Shown: positions 38,566 through 39,762 of the stretch, piece by piece
Position numbering within the stretch: position 1 is the first letter of the stretch
Layout: every line of letters begins with the position of its first letter
Assembly (NCBI GenBank): GCA_002689995.1
Contig: NZIV01000031.1
Span: 73,812 to 137,811 of the forward strand
Reading direction: 5' to 3'
From: Fidelibacterota bacterium
GTDB lineage: Bacteria; Fidelibacterota; Marinisomatia; SCGC-AAA003-L08; GCA-2689995
Length of the DNA stretch: 64,000 nucleotides
Notes under the pieces: generated by a model
Seen by the model: the letters and a program-made list of their open reading frames with translations, nothing else
What the model was told of the DNA's origin: nothing
Databases searched by the model: none
Translations under genes and position numbers: made by a program

Positions 38566-39762
38566 ATGATTATAAGAAATTTATTTTCAATTTTAATTTT
38601 AGTTTCATATATATTTTCATCAGATAATAGATCGACAATATATTATAATGGTAATCCAAGTGGCGTTGAAACTTATAATCTTGTATATAAAACAGATTCA
38701 ACAGATTATCAATTTAGTAATCGGTTTATTGTTAATAATGATTATATTCTTGAAAGGTTTTCATTTTATTTTAGTTTTTTAGAATATCCTGATTCTATAA
38801 TGGTAATTCTTCAAGAAAATGAAAATGAATCTCCGGGTAATATTATAGGTGAATGGCCAGTTACGATTAATCAAAATTATCCAAATGGTTCAGGGTACAA
38901 TATTTTTACATTAGATGAATGTATACAATTAGATATTGATCAGACATATTGGGTTACAGCCTTATCTCGTGGTAATGGAATTTTAAAATGGAACCATACA
39001 GATGAAAATTGGCCAAATATTAGTTCTTTTAATGGTGGACTATCGTGGTCTGACGTTTCACTGAGTCCTCCTGGAGCTAGTATAGTTTACGGGGAGACAA
39101 TCTATTATCAAGATCCAATATGGGGTGATGTAAATGATGATTTAATTCAAAATGTTGTGGATATAATACAGATGGTTCAATTCGTTATGGAAGAATTAAA
39201 CTTATCTGAAAATCAAATTTACAAAGCTGATATTAATCAAGATGGTGAAGTTAATGTAATAGACATCTTAGGAGTTGTAAATATAATTCTGAATACTACT
39301 CCACCAATGGTAACTTGGTTATTAGAAAACATAAATACTTTTTCTCCTAGCTTTGAAGAACTTATTGGTCCTTCAACTTACAATGGGAATATTTCTTTAT
39401 ATTATTTTGGAAAAGCAGGTTGAGCGATGTGCCGGCACCGGTTCGGTGTTTTAAATGACTTATATTTAGAACTTCAGTCCGAAGGTATTAATGATGTTTC
39501 TATTATGGGTATAAACGGTTATCAATATTTGGAAGATGATTACCAAGACATGATTGATCAGAGGTTACTTCCATGGGTTCAAGATTATCCAGAAGTAGAC
39601 GTATGGGGCCAGTGGGGAGTTGTTTTGCGTGATTTATTTATATTAGATAGAAATGGTATACTCATAACAAAAATTAATTTAACAGCATTTAATCCTGACC
39701 CTACATCGACTTGTGGACAGAATTATGATACAATTAAGAACGTAATTTTAAATGCTAGATAG
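38566..39762 (+). CDS. Candidate selenoprotein: secreted protein with dockerin-like repeats and a SelP-like thioredoxin domain (UxxC), UGA read through
   Basis: ATG at 38566 gives a signal peptide (residues 1-18). A beta-sandwich-like region follows (20-180), then a dockerin-like repeat (about 187-241; GDVNDD and ADINQDGEVNVIDI) and a thioredoxin-type domain (about 248-398). The frame has TGA at 39421-39423 (residue 286) and continues for 112 codons to TAG at 39760-39762. The TGA falls in GKAG-U-AM-C, the position of a redox Cys or Sec in UxxC/CxxC motifs. Residues after it (LNDLYLELQSEGINDVSI, VDVWGQWGVVLRDLF, ILDRNGILI) resemble the selenoprotein P N-terminal domain. A hairpin follows the UGA. 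Read-through is inferred; a Cys-to-stop mutation is the alternative. Confidence 0.8.
39424..39453 (+). promoter_or_regulatory. Putative bacterial SECIS hairpin
   Basis: Right after the TGA, a stem CACCG/CGGTG (39436-39440 with 39444-39448) closes a GTT loop (39441-39443). Two G-T pairs can extend it to seven pairs. The loop starts 17 bases after the TGA and begins with G, as expected for bacterial SECIS elements. The block 39421-39448 has 19 G or C in 28 bases, in an otherwise AT-rich gene. Structure was paired by eye only. Confidence 0.72.

Follow-up and report, generated by a model that had tools for sequence, protein, structure and literature searches.

The gene described here lies on the forward strand of a 64,000-nucleotide (nt) stretch of DNA from a Fidelibacterota bacterium (contig NZIV01000031.1; the whole stretch is called the window below), where a frame running from 38566 to 39762 contains one internal stop codon, the TGA at 39421-39423. 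This codon occupies residue 286, within GKAG-U-AMCRHRFG, at the first position of a UxxC motif (U denotes selenocysteine, or Sec), and the evidence assembled from the source genome and its relatives argues that it is decoded as selenocysteine, with a probability of about 0.96. The predicted product, exported and 398 residues long, would carry a thioredoxin-fold Sec-x-x-Cys domain on a beta-sandwich domain and a dockerin, and the locus would comprise the following features:

38566..39762, + strand: whole gene, 398 codons with the TGA as Sec, plus a TAG stop (translation)
38566..38622, + strand: N-terminal hydrophobic stretch, residues 1-19, a probable signal peptide (sequence inspection; helix 2-17 in the structure model)
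38626..39105, + strand: beta-sandwich domain, residues 21-180 (structure model, fold match, weak profile similarity)
39124..39288, + strand: dockerin type I repeat pair, residues 187-241 (Pfam Dockerin_1)
39313..39756, + strand: thioredoxin-fold domain, residues 250-397, NF053656 redoxin_TUGYCR (NCBIfam profile, fold matches)
39421..39423, + strand: UGA for the predicted Sec286, first position of UxxC (translation and DNA of relatives)
39430..39432, + strand: TGC for Cys289, fourth position of UxxC, replaced by TGA in UxxU relatives
39434..39450, + strand: bacterial Sec insertion sequence (SECIS) hairpin, stem 39434-39439/39445-39450, loop GGUUC at 39440-39444

An interrupted frame and its domains

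An earlier note, made from the letters of the window, had proposed a single 398-codon frame broken only by this TGA at the first UxxC position, and had counted 112 codons open beyond it; translation bears out both statements, and the columns downstream of the TGA are conserved in relatives. A scan of the source genome (G000, a metagenome-assembled genome (MAG) of 2.9 Mb in 87 contigs) recovered the gene's own match at 100%, containing one TGA. The 47 long non-overlapping open reading frames (ORFs) of the window, which has a G+C content of 27.5%, end in 32 TAA, 8 TAG and 7 TGA codons. Past the TGA stops of six other ORFs only 0-4 in-frame codons stay open, versus 112 here, suggesting that this organism uses TGA as a functional stop and that the one at 39421-39423, which alone among the TGAs of the window is flanked on each side by 100 or more open codons, is exceptional. 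An open frame is by itself no proof of read-through, since 254-418 open codons follow four TAA or TAG stops of the window, cases that we take to be the next genes in the same frame. An Rfam scan of the window returned nothing above the gathering score.

The dockerin that the earlier note had pointed out is confirmed by a Dockerin_1 match of 27.5 bits (cut-off 22.9), which covers two predicted calcium-binding repeats, DVNDDLIQNVVDI and DINQDGEVNVIDI, and the beta-sandwich shows a weak similarity to choice-of-anchor R proteins (residues 56-148; 24 bits versus a cut-off of 30). The catalytic domain scores 138.7 bits against NF053656 (curated cut-off 100), and the modelled residues 244-398 match folds of the ResA/DsbE/AhpC type. 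The domain had been called SelP-like, a description of which the thioredoxin fold and a faint SelP_N similarity survive (19.2 bits, E 0.00087), while the SelP_N score falls below the Pfam cut-off of 23.2 and the modelled fold matches ResA- and AhpC-type proteins; the RDLFILD stretch is one that we take to be peroxiredoxin-like, not the cis-Pro loop of a thioredoxin. Membership in selenoprotein P itself was rejected on the SelP_N score, the single UGA and the lack of a Sec-rich C-terminal region. Other members of the family carry tails of the type IX secretion system (T9SS).

Conservation of the TGA and a covarying hairpin

Profile searches place the family in a substantial part of the phylum: within the order, a four-domain profile hit 28 of 41 genomes; within the class, a 29-domain profile hit 67 of 171; and within the phylum, NF053656 hit 67 of 245, with no match in 14 control genomes. 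Additional family members in the source genome, each with the TGA in this place, lie on contigs C41 (UNTC), C6 and C31 (UGLC, near-identical), C34 and C80, the last two being UAGU forms with two TGA codons in C34. When distinct sites from genomes of the phylum were read as DNA (no more than 30 loci from each genome search), the first-position codon was TGA in 70 of 70, the window's own included, and a Cys or Trp codon in none, with TGT or TGC at the fourth position in 53 (UxxC) and a second TGA in 17 (UxxU). These 70 sites are drawn from part of the 120 rows of the class scan, together with loci of relatives; the unread rows are known by their stop counts, and TGA occurs in 115 of the 120, the other five starting past the site. 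The part of the domain downstream of the TGA is conserved across 29 aligned domain rows. Two weak, TGA-less matches, L032 (WATWCGPC, under the E-value cut) and G008:C82 (FWASWCAPC), are ordinary CxxC thioredoxins and were not counted. Two UxxU members of the source genome (L030:1438-2115 and L148) have a C-terminal dockerin and a possible diselenide.

The strongest evidence for Sec decoding is the covariation of the hairpin together with the codon bias of its loop, because both reflect a constraint on the RNA and not on the protein. In the pertinent parts of a 2026 review, the rules for bacterial SECIS (bSECIS) elements are a loop of 3-9 nt, a G within its first two positions, a spacing of 16-37 nt and a minimum free energy (MFE) of -7.5 kcal/mol or lower (PMC13188914). 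The hairpin of the window, with a GGUUC loop spaced 16 nt from the UGA and an MFE of -7.7 kcal/mol for 39433-39451, falls within these limits. As a single sequence its fold is unremarkable (z between -0.53 and 0.04 across three cuts), so folding of this kind was set aside as uninformative; against synonymous shuffles, the mean z over 48 sites was -1.38, with 31 sites below -1 and some positive. Across 51 of the 53 UxxC sites, aligned gap-free from the UGA (set A5, near-copies L012 and L076 left out), pairing holds in 85.6% of the 306 cells of the six-pair stem (columns 14-19/25-30), 65 cells are changed on both sides and the covariation score is 0.566, versus 28.8-49.3% paired, 8-22 cells changed on both sides and scores of 0.07-0.15 when the partner is slid by 1-3 columns. 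No shuffle of 500 attained the observed covariation score, either in this set or in A6, which comprises 16 of the 17 UxxU sites (L047 left out); the tally of doubly changed pairs was attained by 49 of 500 shuffles for A5 and 5 of 500 for A6. The loop falls on Arg-Phe, and its Arg codon is CGG in 46 of 52 cases (the other six are AGG), compared to a CGG share of 9.4% among 524 Arg codons of the same genes and 11 of 593 in the window, while its Phe codon is TTC in 47 of 51 versus a background of 23%. The UxxU genes have a distinct hairpin, with loop AGUU 16 nt after the second UGA, in which 90 of 90 cells are paired and three pairs are compensated.

The source genome also encodes the components of a Sec pathway: a tRNA-Sec (65.3 bits, anticodon tca), selA (501 bits) and selD (375 bits) all score over their cut-offs, and selD itself contains a UGA, in SGAGUACK. 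Directly downstream of selA lies selB, whose coding sequence is split between two frames sharing roughly C63:23277-23304:

L031:2862-3305 and L031:3278-4735 (G000 C63): split selB frames, with their overlap near a T run

In a set of 20 genomes searched, selB was over the cut-off in 16. A search of the class for tRNA-Sec, in which at most 23 candidates per genome were scored, left 25 family-positive genomes without one; a laxer search brought 4 of these over the cut-off, selB was over the cut-off in 21 of the 25, and the last four are MAGs that are 55-69% complete.

The read-through that the earlier note had inferred is thus supported by the machinery genes, by the TGA in 70 of 70 sites and by the covarying SECIS. 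The comparisons it had proposed gave a TGA kept in every distinct copy read and a downstream part that is conserved, and a search for the machinery in which tRNA-Sec, selA and selD scored over their cut-offs and selB was found split. The hairpin it had noticed holds up as an element that is conserved and covaries in relatives and agrees with the bSECIS rules, and it does not stand out as a fold of one sequence.

Predicted function and competing explanations

In translation of the predicted mRNA, SelB with tRNA-Sec would bind the hairpin through its GGUUC loop and insert Sec at the UGA. The signal peptide would export the protein and the dockerin may hold it at the envelope, whether it docks in a calcium-dependent way or serves as a sorting module; outside the cytoplasm, Sec286 would attack a disulfide, a peroxide or an oxidised protein group, Cys289 would resolve the resulting selenylsulfide and an envelope thiol pathway would re-reduce the active site. 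Judged from sequence, the protein is likely to be an exported, dockerin-borne Sec-x-x-Cys thiol oxidoreductase or peroxidase acting in oxidative-stress defence, a proposal that draws on the signal peptide, the dockerin, the fold and the genes linked to the family in relatives. Among 11 relatives with the window's architecture, close pairs included (L073, whose protein is without the dockerin part, was left out), a gene on the same strand within 610 nt downstream encodes a Fur-family protein in 4, an AhpC-type peroxiredoxin in 8 and either of the two in 9. The two relatives with neither are L067, where only 491 nt of contig are left, and L069, where 2,238 nt were examined. In L066 a gene for an Fe/Mn superoxide dismutase follows (Pfam check), and the neighbours in G006, a genome of the same order as the source genome, are identical in sequence to those of L066. 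This linkage suggests a role in defence against peroxide or oxidative stress.

Several observations weigh against Sec decoding or against the proposed function. The selB frame break may be an assembly error or a real break; the source genome has 7.3% contamination, and its machinery genes are on contigs other than that of the window. Co-occurrence of tRNA-Sec and the family failed as proof of Sec decoding, since 42 of 67 genomes of the class with the family and 59 of 104 without it yielded a tRNA-Sec, with no enrichment (Fisher p 0.27). The stem alone (39434-39450) has an MFE of -7.3 kcal/mol, 7 of 48 downstream stretches, including three copies of the source genome, are weaker than -7.5 kcal/mol, and one metagenomic homologue, P0144, substitutes Ser for U as well as for C. 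The linkage cases are not independent, owing to the close pairs among the 11 relatives. The gene that comes next in the window encodes an M16/PreP-type protease on the opposite strand, Fur and peroxiredoxin queries found no match anywhere in the 64 kb, and no operon partner was recognised. Finally, the dockerin may dock to a cohesin, but the source genome has only one cohesin over the cut-off, a module at C59:3403-3723, against 74 matches to the dockerin stretch.

Those 74 are among 80 matches of a full-gene scan (E up to 1, a few being halves of one stretch), so that most dockerins of the source genome are without an evident cohesin partner. Of 20 genomes searched, 19 have cohesins over the cut-off. 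P0144 is a close homologue, perhaps a non-catalytic version.

The alternative that survives best accepts the selenoprotein and gives it another role, either as a folding isomerase for exported dockerin or T9SS proteins or in selenium storage and delivery, as in selenoprotein P. The ResA/DsbE-like fold, the many dockerin matches of the genome and the lack of a Fur or peroxiredoxin neighbour in the window are consistent with such a role, which we nevertheless regard as unlikely in view of the Fur/peroxiredoxin linkage in relatives, the presence of one or two Sec residues in a protein without a Sec-rich tail, and the SelP_N score below the cut-off.

Far less probable is that the TGA is a real stop, which would leave a 285-residue beta-sandwich/dockerin protein followed by 111 codons that are a remnant or a separate ORF. 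Among full-protein database relatives, 11 of 18 end directly before the TGA (all 11 of the truncated ones that were aligned) and the split selB of the source genome would also fit this explanation, against which stand the conserved downstream domain, the invariant TGA and the covarying hairpin.

The least probable of the three is that TGA encodes tryptophan, as in a genetic code like table 4, giving WxxC or WxxW motifs. At least 124 full-length metagenomic relatives have W at the Sec position (119 WxxW, 5 WxxC; entries P0012, P0014-P0016 and P0020-P0139, among 120 matches listed of 945 for one profile, plus four), as does P0019, and P0026 reads WAGC, with Cys at the second place in a UxxU-type member. 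These entries are apparently products of table-4 gene calling, because in genomic DNA these types carry TGA. A tryptophan reading is opposed by the TGA stops of six further long ORFs in the window, the 159 uses of TGG, the tRNA-Sec, SelA and SelD of the source genome, the placing of the second UxxU UGA at a position occupied by Cys in other members, and the finding of TGA, never TGG, in all 70 genomic copies read. A pseudogene or chance frame was rejected on the conservation of the TGA, the covariation of the hairpin and the survey of stops in the window.

With Sec decoding retained, database entries that end at the UGA or show Trp mean that the family is easily missed. Cys homologues at the Sec site commonly back a selenoprotein assignment without being needed for it. 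A third protein search found no Cys form with an intact motif at this site among the 26 matches listed, 25 of which start downstream of it, the other being P0144.

Beside one UxxU gene of the source genome lies a further candidate:

L030:2097-3182 (G000 C34): candidate selenoprotein NATW-U-PACY, TGA at L030:2382

The same gene was seen in L036, L039, L043, L045-L048, L055, L057, L060 and L065, and in L078-L081, L088, L091, L092, L094 and L100. All 10 distinct copies read have the TGA, and a CAUCAGUUUGAUG-type hairpin follows it in most. No NCBIfam model matched the protein and no Pfam family scored over its cut-off, so it may possibly represent an unnamed selenoprotein family.

Relation to known families

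The closest description in print is that of Prx-like 2, a family from Global Ocean Sampling reads published in 2008, for which the parts of the article that concern it report 99 Sec and 100 Cys forms, a weak similarity to pfam04592 (SelP_N), UxxU variants, two fusion types and one read with adjacent Prx and Prx-like 2 genes (PMC2398784). The present proteins share the UxxC motif with UxxU variants, the weak SelP_N similarity, the occurrence of fusions and the peroxiredoxin neighbour; they differ in that the same parts of that article deal with reads only and name no owner, dockerin, T9SS tail, Fur linkage or hairpin covariation (PMC2398784). Matching by description, we infer that the present family is Prx-like 2, and the 100 Cys homologues, versus none here, may come from other phyla or from a broader definition of the family (PMC2398784).

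Curated models also touch this protein. NF053656 (NCBIfam release 20.0, June 2026) already labels the domain as a TUGYCR motif thioredoxin fold (seleno)protein, covers the domain only and gave the one UxxU member tested 77.8 bits, below its cut-off. The last ~65 positions of NF045500, Omp28_seleno (GOS_C), a curated selenoprotein model, match the present dockerin stretch, while its catalytic part is unmatched (17.4 bits versus 200). The fold of residues 244-398 is shared with ResA/TlpA/DsbE-type oxidoreductases and AhpC peroxiredoxins, from which the present domain differs by Sec at the first Cys position. The pneumococcal surface thioredoxins Etrx1 and Etrx2 presumably have neither selenocysteine nor a dockerin. 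Their likeness to the present protein, as far as the consulted parts of their description go, is an analogy of function only (PMC3914529). A marine fusion of a deiodinase-like selenoprotein to an EF-hand, described in part of another report, is likewise joined to a calcium-binding domain, but both its catalytic domain and its calcium module differ from those found here (PMC9402790).

The earlier note had set the arrangement apart from described selenoproteins. No description of it was found in the portions consulted of literature on selenoproteins with dockerin, Marinimicrobia or SAR406, including excerpts of PMC9312934, PMC5029168, PMC12013277, PMC1088965 and PMC9402790; parts of the family table of PMC13188914 have no NF053656 entry, and its main text, to the extent covered, does not mention dockerin, Marinimicrobi-, NF053656 or TUGYCR. 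The claim stands for the full arrangement and not for its components, as previous work had already described both the domain family and fused forms. The domain family itself is not new; what is new are the full architectures, the covarying SECIS, the Fur/peroxiredoxin linkage and the neighbouring, possibly unnamed family.

Taken across the Neomarinimicrobiota, it is conceivable, though a tentative idea that we hold at somewhat less than even odds, that a Sec-only thioredoxin/peroxiredoxin-like domain serves as a plug-in surface module on dockerin, T9SS-tail, leucine-rich and other exported scaffolds, forming a selenium redox shield wired to peroxide regulation, in which UxxU members may form a diselenide and stand beside a second selenoprotein, NATWUPACY. 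A family that, in the literature consulted, appears only in anonymous ocean reads gains a probable owner, in an uncultured marine phylum, together with complete genes. With these, one can test why a marine bacterium would invest selenium in redox domains that it exports, and whether the two selenols of UxxU yield an oxidant-resistant surface enzyme.
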